DNA from: Fibrobacterota bacterium
GTDB lineage: Bacteria; Fibrobacterota; Fibrobacteria; UBA11236
Direction: 5' to 3'
DNA length: 64,000 nt
NCBI GenBank assembly: GCA_028287465.1
Contig: JAQBPO010000042.1
Location: forward strand, 1-64,000
Shown here piece after piece: positions 5,301 through 28,366 of the stretch (within the stretch, counting starts at the first letter, position 1; every line of letters starts with the position of its first letter). Both the position numbers and the translations under genes were made by a program. Below the pieces are notes generated by a model. The model made no database searches and was not told the origin of the DNA. It was given only the letters and a program-made list of their open reading frames with translations.

Positions 5301-6104
5301 ATGGCTGACGGATACCGGACCATAAAAGCGGAAACCCATCAGGGAGTCCTGGACCTGCGCCTCTTCCGGCCCCAGGTCAAGAATGCCTTCAACCCGGAGA
5401 TGATCCGGGAGTTGAAAGAGGCCCTCCGCCTCGCCGAGGCGGACGAAAGCCTGCGCGTCATCACCCTGCGGGGCGAAGGCGGGGTCTTCTGCAGCGGCGG
5501 CGATCTCAACTGGATGAAGGAAAGCCTCTCGTACACCGAAGAGGAGAATTTCGAGGACGCGGAAAACCTCTACGCCCTCTTCGAGGCCCTCGATCGATGC
5601 CGGCTCCCCGTGGTCTGCGGCGCGGAAGGCTTCGCCTTGGGCGGAGGCGTGGGGCTCGTGAGCGTTTGCGATTACGTGGTGGCCCGCCGGGACACCCGCT
5701 TCTCCCTTTCCGAAGTGCGGGTGGGCCTGGTTCCCGCCTGCATCGGGCCGTTCGTCCTGCGGAAGATCGGCGAGTCCCAGGCGCGCGCCCTGTTCCTGAC
5801 CTCGGAGCGCTTCGACGCGGATCGGGCCCTCCAGATCGGGCTGGTCCACGAAGTGGCCGAGGATTCCGAAGGCGTCACCCGGGCCATGGCCCGCGTCACC
5901 CAAAGCATCCTGGCCGCCTCGCCCAAGGCCATCGGCGTCGCCAAGTCCTTCATCCGCTCCCTCACGCGGACCTCGCCCGGATCGCAAGGTCCCCTGGCCG
6001 TCCGCACCCTGGCCGATATCCGCGTCACCAAGGAAGCCCAGGAAGGCCTGCGCGCCTTCCTGGAAAAACGGGCACCGCAATGGCACAACGGAAATCCAGG
6101 CTGA
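5301..6104 (+). CDS. Enoyl-CoA hydratase/isomerase family protein (methylglutaconyl-CoA hydratase-like)
   Basis: A crotonase-fold protein of 267 residues. The oxyanion-hole segments are visible: GEGGVFCSGGDLNWM and CGAEGFALGGGVGLVSVCDYVVA. By position beside an MCC-type carboxyltransferase it most likely hydrates 3-methylglutaconyl-CoA to HMG-CoA; other enoyl-CoA substrates are possible. I chose the ATG at 5301 because GAGGA lies 7 nt before it; an in-frame ATG at 5277 would add eight residues. Its 3' end overlaps icmF by 25 nt, so the two are translationally linked. Confidence 0.88.
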   Translation: MADGYRTIKAETHQGVLDLRLFRPQVKNAFNPEMIRELKEALRLAEADESLRVITLRGEGGVFCSGGDLNWMKESLSYTEEENFEDAENLYALFEALDRCRLPVVCGAEGFALGGGVGLVSVCDYVVARRDTRFSLSEVRVGLVPACIGPFVLRKIGESQARALFLTSERFDADRALQIGLVHEVAEDSEGVTRAMARVTQSILAASPKAIGVAKSFIRSLTRTSPGSQGPLAVRTLADIRVTKEAQEGLRAFLEKRAPQWHNGNPG

Positions 6105-9100
6105 AGCCCGGGCCGCCGGTCCGGTTCATCACGGCCGCCTCGCTTTTCGACGGACATGACGCGGCCATCCATATCATGCGGCGGGTCCTCGTCTCGGAAG
6201 GCGCGGAAGTCATCCACCTCGGCCATGATCGTTCCGTCTCCGACGTGGTGGAAGCGGCCATCCAGGAGGACGCGCAAGGCATCGCGGTCTCGAGCTATCA
6301 GGGCGGCCACGTCGAATATTTCTCCTACATGGTCGAGTCCCTGCGCAAGCGGGGCTGCGGGCATATCCGGGTCTATGGCGGCGGGGGAGGGGTGATCAAC
6401 CCCGGGGAAATCGCCCTCCTCCACAAGCGCGGGGTGGCGCGCATCTTCACTCCCGAGGACGGCCGCACCCTTGGCCTCGAAGGCATGATCCGCCTCATGA
6501 TCGGGGAATGCGGCACCGCTCCCGGCAAACCCATGGCCGCATTGCCCGCGAAGTTCACGGCTGCGGATTCCCCGGCCATCGCGCGCGCCTTGAGCACCCT
6601 GGAATGGGGACAGGAGAAGTCCGGCCGGGTGAAAACCGGAGGCCTCCTGAAGGCCATCCGGGCCCGGCTCCGCGGGTCGGTATGCCCCGTGGTCGGCATC
6701 ACCGGCACGGGCGGGGCGGGCAAGAGTTCCCTGGTGGATGAAATGCTGGTCCGGTTCCTGGAAGCCTTCCCGCGCAAGCGGGTGGCCGTCCTCTGCGTGG
6801 ATCCTTCCCGCCTGCGCACGGGCGGGGCCTTGTTGGGCGATCGCCTGCGCGTGAACGCCGCGAGCCGTTCCGATCGCGTCTATTTCCGTTCCATGGCCAC
6901 GCGCCGCGCCCATGCGGCCATGAGCGCCACCGTCAAGGACGGATTGGACCTTCTGAAGGCGGCCGGATTCGACTTGATATTGCTCGAGACGGCCGGTATC
7001 GGGCAAAGCGATACCGAGGTCACCGAGGTGACGGACACCAGCCTTTACGTGATGACGCCGGAATACGGCGCGCCCAGCCAGCTCGAGAAAATCGGCATGC
7101 TGGACTATGCGGATTTCGTCGTGCTCAACAAGTTCGACAAGCACGGCGCCGAAGACGCCCTGCGGGACGTGCGCAAGGCCTATCAACGGAACCGCAAGCT
7201 GTTCACGACCTCCCTCGAGAAGCTCCCCGTGTTCGGCACCTGCGCGCATCGCTTCCGGGACCTGGGGACCAACGCCCTCTGCAATGCCCTGTTCACCCAC
7301 CTGGGCCTGGAGTTCGAACGCTTTCCCGAAGGCCTGCCGGACCGGCGCGGCCTGCTGCCGCGGGATCGGAGCGATTACCTGCGCCGTATCGCCACCCGGG
7401 TATCCGACTACCATGGGGAGACGCGGGAAAAGGCGGGCAAGGCCCGGAGCGCGGAGCATGTCTACCATGCCTTGGGCGAGCTCGGGGTATCCCTGCCGGG
7501 CAAAGCCGAGCCCCTCGCCGATGGGAATCCGGCTTCCGGAAGGAAAGCCGCGGCCGGAAGGAAGTCCGCATCCGCGGGGAAAACGGCCGCCGGTAAAACC
7601 GCCCCCGCCGCGGAAGGCCCGGTGCAGGCGTTACGCGCCCGTTACCATGATCTGCTCTCCGGGATCGACAAGGAAACCCTGGAGGAACTCCGAGGCTTCG
7701 ACGCCCTGCGACGGTCCTACCAGGCGGAAACCCAGACCTACCGCGTGCGGGACAAGGATATCCGGGTCCGCAACCATACCCAAAGCCTGAGCGGCCTGGA
7801 CATCCCCAAGGTCAGCCTGCCGGAAAGCGCCTCCTGGGGCGACCAGGTGGAATTCCTCCGTTCCGAGAACGCGCCGGGACGCTTTCCCTATACGGCCGGA
7901 GTGTTCCCGTTCAAACGGGAAGGGGAGGATCCCACCCGCATGTTCGCCGGGGAAGGCACGGCCGAGCGCACCAATGCGCGCTTCCATTACGTCAGCAAGG
8001 GCCAGAAGGCCGTGCGCCTGTCCACGGCCTTCGATTCCGTCACCCTGTACGGAGCCGATCCGGATCCGCGCCCGGACATCTACGGGAAGGTAGGCAACTC
8101 CGGCGTTTCCGTATGCTGCCTGGACGACGCCAAGCGACTCTATTCCGGGTTCGACCTGTGCGCGCCGGATACTTCGGTCTCCATGACCATAAACGGCCCC
8201 GCGCCCATCATCCTCGCCTACTTTTTCAATACCGCCATCGATGCGGCCTGCGAACGCTGGCTCCGGAAAACCGGACGCTGGGCGAAAACGGCGGTCAAGA
8301 TCGCGAAGTGGTTCAAGGACCGGAAGATCGCCCCCCCGACCTACCGCGCCCCGAAGCTCCCCGCCGGTCACGATGGATCCGGATTGGGCTTCCTGGGCCT
8401 GCCCGCGGACGCGGTGATGGACCCGGCGGATTACCGGCGTATCCGTTCCGGGGTCCTGCAATCCGTGAGGGGTACGGTCCAGGCGGACATCCTGAAAGAG
8501 GACCAGGCCCAGAACACCTGCATCTTCTCCACGGAATTCTCCCTTCGGCTGATGGGGGATACCCAGCAATATTTCATCGACAACGGGGTGCGCAACTTCT
8601 ACAGCGTGAGCATCAGCGGCTACCATATCGCCGAAGCCGGCGCGAATCCCATCACCCAATTGGCCTTGACCCTGGCGAACGGATTCACCTACGTGGAGTA
8701 TTACAAGGCCCGGGGGATGGACATCGATCGTTTCGCCCCCAACCTTTCCTTCTTCTTCTCCAACGGCCTGGATCCGGAGTATACCGTGATCGGCCGCGTC
8801 GCCCGTCGCATCTGGGCCATCGCCATGCGCGACCATTACGGCGCGGACGAACGCAGCCAGAAGCTCAAGTACCATATCCAGACCTCGGGACGATCCCTGC
8901 ATGCCCGGGAAATCGACTTCAACGATATCCGCACCACCCTCCAGGCCCTGCTGGCCATCGGCGACAATTGCAATTCCCTGCATACGAACGCCTTCGACGA
9001 GGCGGTGACCACCCCCACCGAGGCCTCGGTGCGCCGGGCCATCGCCATCCAGCTGATCATCAACCGCGAATTGGGCCTGGTGAAGAACGAGAATCCCATG

Positions 9101-9568
9101 CAGGGCAGCCATTTCCTGACCCGGCTGACCGCCATGGTGGAAGAGGCCGTACTCGGCGTCTTCCAGGAATTGGATGCCCGGGGAGGGGTGCTGGGCGCCA
9201 TGGAGACCAATTTCCAGCGGAGCCGCATCCAGGAAGAGTCCATGCTGTACGAACGCCGGAAGCAAAGCGGGGAGTTGCCCATAGTGGGGGTCAATACCTT
9301 CACGAATCCCGCCGCGGAAGGGACGCGCGGGACGTCGGAACTGATCCGCAGCACGGACAAGGAAAAGCGCGACCAGGTGGATCAGGTGAAAGCCTATGGG
9401 AACCGTTTCCCCAAGGAAGGGGCCGCCGCCCTGGCGCGCCTGAAGGCCGCGGCCCGTAAGGACGGGAACCTGTTCGGGGAATTGCTGGACGCGGCGAAAT
9501 ACTGCACCCTGGGAGCCATCTCCAAGGCCCTTTTCGAAGTCGGCGGCGCCTACCGCCGCAATACCTGA
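6080..9568 (+). CDS. icmF: Fused isobutyryl-CoA mutase IcmF (B12 domain, G-protein chaperone, mutase)
   Basis: An adenosylcobalamin radical mutase interconverting isobutyryl-CoA and n-butyryl-CoA; the family also acts on isovaleryl/pivalyl-CoA. It has 1162 residues against about 1090 in known IcmF. The N-terminal B12 domain carries DGHDAA with His26 as expected cobalt ligand and SSYQGGH. A MeaI-type GTPase follows: P-loop GTGGAGKSS with Lys215, then ETAGIGQSD and NKFD. The mutase barrel starts near residue 580. Two specificity residues point to ICM rather than methylmalonyl-CoA mutase: Phe609 in AGVFPFKR (Tyr in MCM) and Gln811 in EDQAQNTC (Arg in MCM). Residues about 472-515 form an extra Ala/Gly/Lys-rich linker between GTPase and mutase. 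It is the last gene of the operon; cobQ nearby may support cofactor supply. Confidence 0.95.
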   Translation: MAQRKSRLKPGPPVRFITAASLFDGHDAAIHIMRRVLVSEGAEVIHLGHDRSVSDVVEAAIQEDAQGIAVSSYQGGHVEYFSYMVESLRKRGCGHIRVYGGGGGVINPGEIALLHKRGVARIFTPEDGRTLGLEGMIRLMIGECGTAPGKPMAALPAKFTAADSPAIARALSTLEWGQEKSGRVKTGGLLKAIRARLRGSVCPVVGITGTGGAGKSSLVDEMLVRFLEAFPRKRVAVLCVDPSRLRTGGALLGDRLRVNAASRSDRVYFRSMATRRAHAAMSATVKDGLDLLKAAGFDLILLETAGIGQSDTEVTEVTDTSLYVMTPEYGAPSQLEKIGMLDYADFVVLNKFDKHGAEDALRDVRKAYQRNRKLFTTSLEKLPVFGTCAHRFRDLGTNALCNALFTHLGLEFERFPEGLPDRRGLLPRDRSDYLRRIATRVSDYHGETREKAGKARSAEHVYHALGELGVSLPGKAEPLADGNPASGRKAAAGRKSASAGKTAAGKTAPAAEGPVQALRARYHDLLSGIDKETLEELRGFDALRRSYQAETQTYRVRDKDIRVRNHTQSLSGLDIPKVSLPESASWGDQVEFLRSENAPGRFPYTAGVFPFKREGEDPTRMFAGEGTAERTNARFHYVSKGQKAVRLSTAFDSVTLYGADPDPRPDIYGKVGNSGVSVCCLDDAKRLYSGFDLCAPDTSVSMTINGPAPIILAYFFNTAIDAACERWLRKTGRWAKTAVKIAKWFKDRKIAPPTYRAPKLPAGHDGSGLGFLGLPADAVMDPADYRRIRSGVLQSVRGTVQADILKEDQAQNTCIFSTEFSLRLMGDTQQYFIDNGVRNFYSVSISGYHIAEAGANPITQLALTLANGFTYVEYYKARGMDIDRFAPNLSFFFSNGLDPEYTVIGRVARRIWAIAMRDHYGADERSQKLKYHIQTSGRSLHAREIDFNDIRTTLQALLAIGDNCNSLHTNAFDEAVTTPTEASVRRAIAIQLIINRELGLVKNENPMQGSHFLTRLTAMVEEAVLGVFQELDARGGVLGAMETNFQRSRIQEESMLYERRKQSGELPIVGVNTFTNPAAEGTRGTSELIRSTDKEKRDQVDQVKAYGNRFPKEGAAALARLKAAARKDGNLFGELLDAAKYCTLGAISKALFEVGGAYRRNT

Positions 9569-9579
9569 AAAAGGAGTAA

Positions 9580-9609
9580 GCGCGGAACCGTTTTGGGGCG
9601 GTTCCGCGC
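9580..9609 (+). terminator. Hairpin after icmF, no U-tract
   Basis: A perfect 11-bp stem (GCGCGGAACCG at 9580-9590 with CGGTTCCGCGC at 9599-9609) with an 8-nt loop, 11 nt after the icmF stop. No T-run follows, so it is either a weak or Rho-assisted terminator or an mRNA-stabilising 3' hairpin. Confidence 0.5.
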
Positions 9610-9724
9610 GAAGCCGCCGGTGGCGCGGGTGGCGGAGAAAACCGGCGGCGTGGATCGGAAGGTGAAGCGGTCCCATCCAATCTAATCCAGCGCCGTCCTC
9701 CATTTCCCTCAACCCTCAAAGAAG

Positions 9725-9743
9725 CGTTGTCGACCCGACAACG
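9725..9743. promoter_or_regulatory. Palindrome CGTTGTCG-ACC-CGACAACG
   Basis: A perfect dyad with 8-bp arms and a 3-nt centre between icmF and the SufR-like operon. The core GTTGTC-N5-GACAAC recurs exactly at 14920-14936 and imperfectly at 18786-18802. A T-run (9751-9755) follows after AACCTCC, so it could be a terminator, but recurrence of the same arms argues for a protein-binding site. Confidence 0.45.
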
Positions 9744-9797: not shown

Positions 9798-9822
9798 TAT
9801 AATAAACCAACCAAAAGGTTGG
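9798..9822 (+). promoter_or_regulatory. -10 element TATAAT with SufR-type operator CAAC-N6-GTTG
   Basis: TATAAT at 9798-9803 is an AT-rich island in GC-rich DNA, 48 nt before the first gene of the operon; no good -35 hexamer is visible. Immediately downstream lies CCAACC-AAAA-GGTTGG (9807-9822), covering the expected transcription start. It contains CAAC (9808-9811), six bases, then GTTG (9818-9821), matching the CAAC-N6-GTTG site I recall for cyanobacterial SufR. A protein bound there would block initiation. The operon itself encodes a SufR-like regulator at 10689, so autorepression is the simple reading. Confidence 0.65.
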
Positions 9823-9850
9823 AATATAAAACACCTCCGAGGAGCCTTCC

Positions 9851-10198
9851 ATGTTGAACATCGCCGTCCTTCTATTCGCCCTGTCCGCCGCCGGCGGCCT
9901 GCTTCTCGCCTCCATGCATTTCCGCGGCAAGGATCGGCCCTGGATCCTGTCCATCCTTCACGGTCTCCTGGCGGCTTCCGGCCTGGTCATCCTGCTCGTC
10001 GCGGTCAAGGCCGGTGGAACACCCGAACATGCGAAGCTTGCCTTGATCCTCTTCATCGTGGCGGCCCTGGGCGGTTTCCTCCTGTTCGCTTTCCACCTGC
10101 AGAAGAAAAAGCTGCCTTCCGCCGTGGTGGTCATCCATGCCGGCGTCGCCGTTTCGGCCTTCCTGCTCCTCGCGGCCTCCCTGTACCTGGGGAAATAG
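9851..10198 (+). CDS. Small four-helix membrane protein of unknown function
   Basis: A 115-residue, very hydrophobic protein with four predicted membrane segments (about residues 3-22, 33-52, 61-83 and 92-113) joined by short basic loops (HFRGKDRPW, HLQKKKLPS). No catalytic motif is recognised. It is the first gene after a TATAAT/CAAC-N6-GTTG promoter-operator and is followed 6 nt later by a DUF2231 membrane protein and then a SufR-like regulator, so expression probably answers to Fe-S or redox state. The ATG follows GAGGAGCCTTCC, a usable ribosome-binding site. Confidence 0.75.
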   Translation: MLNIAVLLFALSAAGGLLLASMHFRGKDRPWILSILHGLLAASGLVILLVAVKAGGTPEHAKLALILFIVAALGGFLLFAFHLQKKKLPSAVVVIHAGVAVSAFLLLAASLYLGK

Positions 10199-10204
10199 GC
10201 GCGT

Positions 10205-10675
10205 ATGCGTCCCGTGATCGAATTCCGCAAGGGTATCAGGGTGATGGGGCATCCGCTCCATACCATCCTGGTTCATTTCCCCATCGCCTTCCTGTTCCTG
10301 GTTTGGCCCCTGGAAATGGCCGGATGGCTGGCCGGGTGGAACCAAGGCTGGCGGCTGGCCTGGCTGGCGGAGGCGGCGGGACTCGTTTTCGCGGTACCGG
10401 CATTGATTACCGGCCTCTGGGATTTGATCGGTTTATCGTCGGATAGGGATCGCCAAAAGGCTTCCGCCCTGGGGAACCTGCATATGATGGTCATGGTGGG
10501 TGCGGTATGCGTTTTCGGCTTCGCCTTGTACCTCAAGGATGGGCTGGCGCCGATTCCCCCACCCGTCCTTTTTGCTATTTTGGGCCTATCCTTCGCCGGT
10601 ACCGGTCTGCTGATCTGGGGCGGTTGGCTGGGCGGGGAAATGGTCTTCCGGCACGGAGCTGGAAGCCGCGAATAA
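10205..10675 (+). CDS. DUF2231 family membrane protein
   Basis: A 156-residue protein with the DUF2231 opening GHPLHTILVHFPIAFLF, whose conserved His residues lie at the start of the first membrane helix, and four predicted membrane segments. Family members are small inner-membrane proteins often seen near heme, copper or respiratory genes; a redox or heme role is suspected but not proven. It lies between the four-helix protein and the SufR-like regulator in a tight operon. The ATG at 10244 (MGHPLH) is an alternative start that would remove 13 residues. Confidence 0.8.
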   Translation: MRPVIEFRKGIRVMGHPLHTILVHFPIAFLFLVWPLEMAGWLAGWNQGWRLAWLAEAAGLVFAVPALITGLWDLIGLSSDRDRQKASALGNLHMMVMVGAVCVFGFALYLKDGLAPIPPPVLFAILGLSFAGTGLLIWGGWLGGEMVFRHGAGSRE

Positions 10676-10688
10676 AGGAAAGCATCCG

Positions 10689-11414
10689 ATGGGTCCTCGC
10701 GCGGGAAATGCCGATAAGCCGCCCGGCAGGGCCAGGGGACTGAAGCCGGAGCGTCCCGATATCCGGCAGCAAATCCTGCGCTTCCTGAAAACCCGCGGCC
10801 AATCCGAAGTGCGCGACGTGGCCAGGCATTTCCGCATCTCCCACGAAGGCGCCCGCAAACAACTCGTGCGCATGGAAGCCGGAGGCCTGGTCACCCGCAC
10901 TCCCGAAGTCGGGCAGGAGGCCGCGGGCCGCCCCAAGGATTTCTACACCGTCACCGCCGCCGGGGACCAAAGCTTTCCCAAGGCTTATGATCGGCTTTCC
11001 ATGGCGATCCTCGAGGGATTGCGCAGGGAGTCCGGCGGCAAAGGCGCGGGCCGCATCCTGTCTGCGCTCGCCCAGGCCCAGGTCGAGGCATGGGCCCCGA
11101 AACTCGAAGGCAAGACCCTGAAGGAAAAGCTGGATGCCCTCAAGGGCCTTTACATGGAAGCGGATCCTTTTGCCACGGTGGAATCGCGGGACGGGGATTT
11201 CCTCCTGATCGAAAGGAATTGCCCCTTCCTCAACGTGGCCATGGAACATCCGGCCCTGTGCAGCCTATCCGTATCCACCCTGGAAATGCTGCTCGGATGC
11301 AGGGTGGTGCGCGAGGAGCGCTTCCAGGCCGGGAACGGCCGGTGCGTATTCCGCGTCAAGCTGGATGCGCCCATCGCGAAGAGGGAATTCCGCTTCGAAT
11401 CCGATCCTTCGTGA
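10689..11414 (+). CDS. SufR-like Fe-S cluster transcription regulator
   Basis: A winged-helix regulator of 241 residues. The N-terminal helix-turn-helix spans about residues 20-75 (IRQQILRFLKTRGQSEVRD, ISHEGARKQLVRMEAGG), followed by GRPKDFYTVTAAGDQSFPKAYD, typical of SufR/DeoR-like metalloregulators. The C-terminal domain has four cysteines, Cys178, Cys191, Cys204 and Cys219, spaced X12, X12, X14. I recall CX12CX13CX14C for cyanobacterial SufR, which holds a [4Fe-4S] cluster and represses the suf operon. No suf genes are in the window; the likely targets are its own operon (site at 9807-9822) and perhaps distant suf genes. The cobQ start overlaps its stop (GTGA). Confidence 0.83.
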   Translation: MGPRAGNADKPPGRARGLKPERPDIRQQILRFLKTRGQSEVRDVARHFRISHEGARKQLVRMEAGGLVTRTPEVGQEAAGRPKDFYTVTAAGDQSFPKAYDRLSMAILEGLRRESGGKGAGRILSALAQAQVEAWAPKLEGKTLKEKLDALKGLYMEADPFATVESRDGDFLLIERNCPFLNVAMEHPALCSLSVSTLEMLLGCRVVREERFQAGNGRCVFRVKLDAPIAKREFRFESDPS

Positions 11415-12976
11415 TTCCCGGGACACCTTCTCCCGGACCGGCGCGCGCGCGCGCCATCATGGTGCTGGGCACCTCCTCCCATGCGGGCAAGACCATGGTC
11501 GCCGCGGCCTTGTGCCGCTCCCTTTTCAGGAAGGGATTCCGGGTCGCGCCCTTCAAGGCCCAGAACATGTCCAACAATTCCTGGGTCACTCCGGAAGGCG
11601 CCGAAATCGGCCGGGCCCAGGCCATGCAGGCGCGGGCCGCGGGCATCGAACCCCATGCGGACATGAATCCCATCCTGCTCAAGCCCATGGGCGGGAACCT
11701 CATGCAGGTGGTGGCGATGGGGAAGGCCGTCGGGAACCTTTCCGGAAAGGAATATTACCGGCGCAAGGACGAGATGCGCGCCACCGTCCGGGAGGCCTAT
11801 GACCGCCTGGCGGGAAGGTTCCAGGCCGTGATCCTGGAAGGCGCGGGCAGTCCCGCCGAGATCAACCTGAGGGAAGAGGATCTGGTGAACGGTTCCATGG
11901 CGGAATACGCCGGGGCCCGTTGCATCCTGGTCGCCGATATCGAAAGGGGCGGCGTTTTCGCATCCATCTTCGGCACCATCTCCCTCCTGGAAGCGCGCCA
12001 TCGCGCCTTGTTGGCGGGCGTGGTCATCAACAAATTCCGCGGGGACGCGTCCCTGTTGGATTCCGGGATCCGCGAGATCGAATCCCTGACAGGCGTTCCG
12101 GTGCTGGGCGTGCTGCCCTACCTTGAGGACCTGGGTTTGGAGGAAGAGGACTCCCTGGGAGCGATGGGTTCGCGTGGGATGGCGGATGCAGGCCCCGTCC
12201 GGATCGACATCGCCGTCATCCGTCTTCCCTTCATGAGCAATTTCACGGATTTCCAACCCTTCCTGGATCCGGAAGCGCGGCGGACCGGCGTGCGCCTGCG
12301 GTACGTGGCCAAGGCGGAGGATATCGGCAATCCGGATTTCCTCATTCTGCCGGGCAGCAAGAATGTCCGGCATGATGCGGATTTCCTGCGCGGTTCGCGG
12401 TTGGACAAGGTCCTGGAAGCCGCGGCCTCGCGGGGCATCCCCATCCTGGGGATTTGCGGCGGCTACCAGATCCTGGGCCGCATCATACGCGATCCCCATG
12501 GTATCGAAGGCGAGCCCGGGGAGACCGCGGGCTTGGGGCTATTGCCCGTGGATACCACCTTGGAACGGGAAAAGGAGCTGTGCCGGGTGGAAGCGGAGAA
12601 TCTGGGCTTCCCGTTCCTGGCCATCGGGGCCCCAATCACCGGGTATGAGATCCATATGGGCCGGACCGTCGCCTTCGGGGAGGGCCGCCCTTTACTGCGC
12701 ACGATGCGGAAAAACGGGGCGATGGCCTCGGAACTGGGCGGTTTCGGATCGGTTTCGGCCGAAGCCGTTTTCGGATGCTACCTGCACGGCCTTTTCGACC
12801 TTCCGGAAGCGCGCGCCGGCCTATTCCGCTGGGTTTCCGACCGCAAGGGCCTGGATTGGCCGGAACCGGAGGCTTTTGCCCCCGATCGCGCCGCGGAATC
12901 CGGGCCCGGGAGGGACCCGCTGGAGCGGATCGCCGACCTGATCGATTCCCGATTCGACGCTGCATCGATTCTGTAA
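11411..12976 (+). CDS. cobQ: Cobyric acid synthase (adenosylcobyrinate a,c-diamide amidotransferase)
   Basis: Glutamine- and ATP-dependent amidation of the b, d, e and g carboxylates of adenosylcobyrinic acid a,c-diamide in cobalamin synthesis. The 521 residues contain the N-terminal synthetase domain (GTSSHAGKT P-loop at residues 20-28, FKAQNMSNNSW, EGAGSPAEINL) and a C-terminal class I glutaminase-like domain with nucleophile Cys349 in GICGGYQ and His459 in CYLHGLFD. I chose the GTG at 11411, which overlaps the regulator stop and preserves the first beta strand; the ATG at 11459 would cut into it. Operon position suggests shared control with the SufR-like regulator; the product would feed the B12 needed by IcmF. 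Confidence 0.93.
   Translation: MIPGTPSPGPARARAIMVLGTSSHAGKTMVAAALCRSLFRKGFRVAPFKAQNMSNNSWVTPEGAEIGRAQAMQARAAGIEPHADMNPILLKPMGGNLMQVVAMGKAVGNLSGKEYYRRKDEMRATVREAYDRLAGRFQAVILEGAGSPAEINLREEDLVNGSMAEYAGARCILVADIERGGVFASIFGTISLLEARHRALLAGVVINKFRGDASLLDSGIREIESLTGVPVLGVLPYLEDLGLEEEDSLGAMGSRGMADAGPVRIDIAVIRLPFMSNFTDFQPFLDPEARRTGVRLRYVAKAEDIGNPDFLILPGSKNVRHDADFLRGSRLDKVLEAAASRGIPILGICGGYQILGRIIRDPHGIEGEPGETAGLGLLPVDTTLEREKELCRVEAENLGFPFLAIGAPITGYEIHMGRTVAFGEGRPLLRTMRKNGAMASELGGFGSVSAEAVFGCYLHGLFDLPEARAGLFRWVSDRKGLDWPEPEAFAPDRAAESGPGRDPLERIADLIDSRFDAASIL

Positions 12977-28291: not shown

Positions 28292-28366
<75 letters not shown>

Follow-up and report, generated by a model that had tools for sequence, protein, structure and literature searches.

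The closest described systems are the SufR regulators of cyanobacteria and actinobacteria and the regulator ArnR of Corynebacterium. Cyanobacterial SufR (TIGR02702; Synechocystis sll0088) combines an N-terminal wHTH domain with a C-terminal cysteine cluster and controls sufBCDS. Its autoregulatory site CAAC-N6-GTTG, which contains a CAA-N8-TTG core, is the known SufR consensus, and its cysteines have the spacing 12-13-14, that is C-X12-C-X13-C-X14-C (PMC8593673). The actinobacterial SufR of M. tuberculosis (Rv1460) regulates its own operon, lies in front of the suf genes and carries three cysteines with X12/X27 spacing; C203, C216 and C244 are all required for function, and Fe-S binding was tested (PMC6034842). 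ArnR is a wHTH protein in which three cysteines (179/193/223) hold a [4Fe-4S] cluster. It represses narKGHJI and hmp, its DNA binding is abolished by NO, and it is reported to have no significant homology to the main known O2/NO-sensing regulator families (PMC12343034).

The window is a stretch of 64,000 nucleotides from a member of the Fibrobacterota. Within it an operon was identified that carries, on the same strand, the genes for a small membrane protein (M1), a DUF2231 membrane protein, a SufR-related wHTH regulator (REG) and cobyric acid synthase (cobQ). The gene order agrees with the preliminary description, according to which the operon holds two small membrane proteins and cobQ in place of suf genes. 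Like cyanobacterial SufR, REG has an N-terminal wHTH domain and a C-terminal cysteine cluster, and CAAC-N6-GTTG is present at its operon; it differs in having three conserved cysteines and M1 and DUF2231 as its putative targets. With Rv1460 it shares the three cysteines and their X12/X27 spacing, but REG relatives have no suf genes nearby. ArnR is a regulator of the same kind, a repressor of non-suf genes that is released by NO, although its cysteine positions and targets are different and the cluster of REG is a predicted one. Our main reading, to which we assign a probability of about 0.68, is that M1-DUF2231-REG is a cassette in which REG is an Fe-S-sensing autorepressor related to SufR and CAA-N8-TTG its operator, and that cobQ lies outside the conserved regulon.

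The product of the REG gene (10689..11414, + strand) aligned over its full length (25-221) with the SufR equivalog model TIGR02702, scoring 65.0 bits against a cut-off of 178.8. Searching 84,980 species genomes with the REG alignment yielded 38 relatives, and REG relatives scored 56-93 bits against the same model. The earlier designation as a SufR-like regulator holds for the relationship and for the operator geometry, but the score falls short of the equivalog. Likewise, the four C-terminal cysteines said to be spaced like those of SufR are present (178/191/204/219), but their spacing is 12-12-14, which departs from the C-X12-C-X13-C-X14-C of SufR, and the third is not conserved. R or H stands in place of C204 in the three other Fibrobacterota orthologs, and the corresponding cysteine is missing from 22 of the 38 relatives (counted by eye). 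C178, C191 and C219 were kept as C-X12-C-X27-C, the actinobacterial three-cysteine SufR pattern, in the orthologs and the 38 relatives, the conservation of the first cysteine being partly ascertained because the search pattern that retrieved the relatives included ERNCPF. The spacing C178-X12-C191-X27-C219 is exactly that of C203/C216/C244 in Rv1460, and ArnR is likewise a three-cysteine [4Fe-4S] protein; a three-cysteine [4Fe-4S] sensor is therefore the best guess, and by this analogy REG is plausibly a [4Fe-4S](Cys)3 sensor. A PDB sequence search with REG gave generic wHTH matches only. That REG represses the same cassette in response to Zn2+, thiol oxidation or heme, sensed through its cysteines, is rather unlikely. 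Three conserved cysteines are able to bind Zn, heme sensing would suit an operon with two putative heme proteins, some Zn was present in ArnR preparations, and the model of the ArnR sensory domain resembles a Zn-binding fold (PMC12343034); against this stands the exact match of the cysteine spacing to Rv1460, for which both Fe-S binding and the need for the cysteines were tested (PMC6034842).

M1 (9851..10198, + strand) is a 115-aa four-helix (4-TM) membrane protein which belongs to no Pfam family. In the alignment His37 and His96 were invariant and His82 nearly so, and based on the helix boundaries these three residues would point toward one membrane face. The AlphaFold2 model (mean pLDDT 95.5) contained four helices; the best Foldseek matches were designed diheme four-helix bundles, which were not significant (E 0.13). 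The second protein (10205..10675, + strand) was assigned to DUF2231 (PF09990) with 64.2 bits, above the gathering cut-off of 26.4, and its AlphaFold2 model had a mean pLDDT of 83.8. His16, His19, His24 and His93 were invariant in the alignment. In a structure search this protein matched oxidase subunit III and cytochrome b561 weakly and without significance, and a PDB sequence search gave no useful match. Based upon the invariant histidines and these non-significant fold matches, one may speculate that M1 and the DUF2231 protein bind heme and act in redox protection or electron transfer.

M1 and DUF2231 genes were located beside REG in Fibrobacterota, candidate division FCPU426, an unclassified bacterium (L072), Bacillota (L078, L086, L087, L090 and L098) and Gammaproteobacteria (L073 and L096). 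The L078 strain is Ectobacillus funiculus, a cultivable species. A search based on M1, in which REG was not used, detected M1 in 3 of 168 genomes of the phylum and 2 of 299 genomes of a Bacillota order, with REG adjacent in 5/5. Fifteen of the 21 genomes with a REG relative have no M1. Since M1 hits always came with REG and many REG genes without M1, M1 goes with REG, which also occurs without it. M1-DUF2231-REG is read as the unit, a self-contained cassette that was probably scattered over distant phyla by horizontal transfer. The literature searched contained no description of the cassette.

Other neighbours were seen beside REG relatives. In Bacillaceae and Paenibacillaceae, folE (GTP cyclohydrolase I) is located directly 3' of a REG relative at L075, L077, L094, L098, L101 and L105, a pairing that thus recurs. 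CAA-N8-TTG also occurs upstream of the folE-adjacent REG relatives and forms at L075 a 15-bp perfect repeat around the core. At L043:740-1204 (minus strand) and L070:3375-3869, small membrane proteins, which we take from reading to be DoxX-like, accompany REG relatives that have no adjacent M1 in the DNA examined.

The cobQ gene (11411..12976, + strand) was identified by scores of 571 bits with NF001989 (cut-off 273) and 481 bits with TIGR00313 (cut-off 309.9). It overlaps REG by 4 nt (GTGA, 11411-11414) if the GTG start is used, so that the overlap first described is confirmed given this start. Upstream of the cassette lies the gene of an icmF-like, B12-dependent mutase (open frame 5597-9568; named from sequence reading). 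The arrangement in G002 is that of the window, with cobQ a few bases downstream of REG. In G004 cobQ directly adjoins icmF, with no cassette between them, and the sigma factor, response regulator and KBL genes that come next are the same; the cassette of that genome is located elsewhere, beside a convergent dehydrogenase. The order cobQ-sigma-RR-hom-KBL is also kept without the cassette in G005. Only in two Fibrobacterota genomes, the window genome and G002, does cobQ adjoin REG; none was found beside REG relatives outside Fibrobacterota or beside the G004 REG. With this ancestral synteny, cobQ is likely a passenger, and the simplest history is that the lineage leading to the window genome and G002 acquired the cassette by insertion between icmF and cobQ. 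The presence of the cassette at another place in G004 favours mobility over loss of the cassette from the relatives.

Two hairpins precede the cassette. The first, a strong one 3' of icmF (9580..9609, + strand), has 11-bp perfect arms and no T-run, so it is only terminator-like; folding of 9569-9625 gave -30 kcal/mol (z -3.0), and the hairpin may limit read-through from icmF. The second, CGTTGTCGACCCGACAACG (9725..9743, strand unassigned), has a T-run 7 nt downstream on the + strand and a z of -1.35 and is a possible weak terminator; no equivalent was found in the upstream regions of G002 or G004. The same stretch, 9725-9743, forms a strong second dyad, CGTTGTCG-ACC-CGACAACG, which lies some 60 bp 5' of the operator. 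No cobalamin riboswitch was detected near the operon, the sole Rfam match in the window being a tRNA at 28292-28364. As the window cobQ is the only one in its genome and the hairpins lie ahead of the cassette, cobQ may be co-transcribed from the M1 promoter.

From this arrangement the preliminary description had proposed that REG couples Fe-S status to cobalamin synthesis, which would make cobQ a selected member of the regulon. The same-strand position of cobQ after REG in both genomes, its single copy in the window genome and the B12-dependent icmF upstream would suit such a role, and if the hairpins after icmF stop read-through the M1 promoter would be the main one. Against it, cobQ is absent beside the REG relatives outside Fibrobacterota and from the G004 cassette, it stays by icmF and the sigma factor in G004 and by the sigma factor in G005 where the cassette is absent, and the conserved targets are the membrane proteins. 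A selected Fe-S/cobalamin link is accordingly not supported and judged quite improbable; most likely it was insertion of the cassette that produced the apparent cobalamin regulon. Among the papers listed, none linked SufR and cobalamin.

The window genome also has a suf operon (L022:3192-9762, G000 contig C77). Its first gene encodes a 312-aa protein, presumably a NifU-like scaffold, that has CGGCAS as a C-terminal motif; sufB, sufC and the genes for SufD-like, cysteine desulfurase and SufU-like proteins follow. A second SufR-like protein of this genome (L021:4251-4973, G000 contig C26), with the motif NHCPIC...CQGFC...RRC, scored 99 bits to TIGR02702; its gene adjoins an SDR-like gene. The relationship of REG to SufR, its SufR-like operator geometry and the presence of the suf operon could be taken to mean that REG acts as this genome's canonical SufR, controlling the suf genes as well. 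This is very improbable: the search for CAAC-N6-GTTG upstream of suf, proposed earlier as a check, found none at the suf operon of the window genome, the score of REG falls far short of the SufR cut-off and is lower than that of its C26 paralog, and no suf homologs were found in the window or beside any REG relative examined.

The operator dyad CCAACCAAAAGGTTGG (9807..9822, strand unassigned) with its CAA-N8-TTG core overlaps the expected +1. It begins 3 bases 3' of TATAAT (9798..9803, + strand), read as the candidate -10 element of the M1 operon, and ends 28 bases ahead of the M1 start codon. A consensus promoter scan paired TTGCCC (from 9768) with TATCAT (to 9796) and not with TATAAT at 9798-9803; the -35 element of the M1 promoter is weak. 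CAAC-N6-GTTG occurs twice in the window (0.57 expected) and 22 times in the 5.8-Mb genome, where the reversed-pattern control occurs 25 times. The genomic count is that of chance, so the motif by itself is no evidence; at genome density about 0.001 sites are predicted in the 282-bp intergenic region. The remaining sites of the window genome lie mostly inside long open frames, and in ten relatives the count of CCAAC-N6-GTTGG was near that of the reversed-pattern control. One candidate in G001, about 4 kb from cobQ (L132:12112), was rejected: it is located within an open frame, and the cobQ gene in question has unrelated neighbours.

Both same-genus genomes that carry the operon (G002 and G004) keep CCAAC-N6-GTTGG with a different N6: the arms of the G002 dyad CCAACAAATAAGTTGG and of the G004 dyad CCAACTTAAATGTTGG are the same and the interiors altered. 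The layout in G004, TG-TATATT-N3-CCAAC, is the same as in the window. A CAA-N8-TTG dyad was present in 14/14 M1 upstream regions examined (Fibrobacterota, FCPU426, Bacillota and Gammaproteobacteria), which represent about four phylum-level groups and thus not 14 independent events. For twelve of these promoters the dyad was compared with 2,000 dinucleotide shuffles, scored for cores having equally many complementary positions at their flanks, and it exceeded the shuffles in 12/12 (p 0.0005-0.0085 each); the two further promoters, found later, also carry it. Across the 14 sites CAA and TTG are invariant and the interior is variable, the next position inward being C...G in Fibrobacterota only and often G...C in the other groups. 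With up to one mismatch allowed, the long operator occurs just once in each of two Bacillota genomes, at the cassette locus, an indication that the regulator of these genomes is a local and dedicated one. The site reported earlier at the operon start is upheld in that the dyad, judged by comparison, is a real operator, a conclusion drawn from the conserved arms and not from the motif count; on the aligned sites, CAAC-N6-GTTG is the Fibrobacterota version of a wider CAA-N8-TTG family site. The motif occurs genome-wide at chance frequency, and the dyad of the window could also be drawn as a short stem-loop. That it is a chance occurrence or an RNA hairpin is nevertheless scarcely credible, for orthologs and other phyla alike have kept the arms and changed the interior without a shift of the position in the promoter, and at some loci the dyad lies between divergent genes, where a single transcript hairpin is unexpected.

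For the Fe-S-sensing cassette the following workings are proposed. REG would bind the CAA-N8-TTG dyad over the promoter and, judging from the position of the dyad, repress the cassette including its own gene. It would carry a [4Fe-4S] cluster, most likely on C178, C191 and C219 with a non-cysteine ligand. Repression would be lifted when NO, oxidants or iron shortage cause the cluster to be lost or nitrosylated, by analogy with ArnR and the SufR of M. tuberculosis. The products released would be the two small membrane proteins with invariant histidines, which, speculatively, may bind heme; where the cassette sits between icmF and cobQ, cobQ may follow without being part of the conserved regulon. 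In NnrS/NsrR-type pairs an Fe-S NO sensor controls a membrane protein that contains heme. Their likeness to the proposed workings is one of analogy, and no sequence relation is claimed. The fuller picture is a stress-response cassette that moved among distant phyla along with its operator, in which an Fe-S-sensing SufR-like repressor is dedicated to small heme-binding M1 and DUF2231 proteins, and which upon insertion ahead of cobQ brought B12 synthesis under Fe-S/NO control in two Fibrobacterota; this we offer tentatively, as possible yet doubtful.

The cassette provides a first testable context for DUF2231, which a single paper in the literature searched names along with membrane proteins, and for the unnamed four-helix protein M1. 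The case of cobQ illustrates that an apparent regulon can arise from a cassette landing inside an operon. The reviewed literature presents SufR as a regulator dedicated to the suf genes; relatives of SufR that form a family with a recognisable operator of their own and a conserved non-suf target would widen the role of this sensor family.
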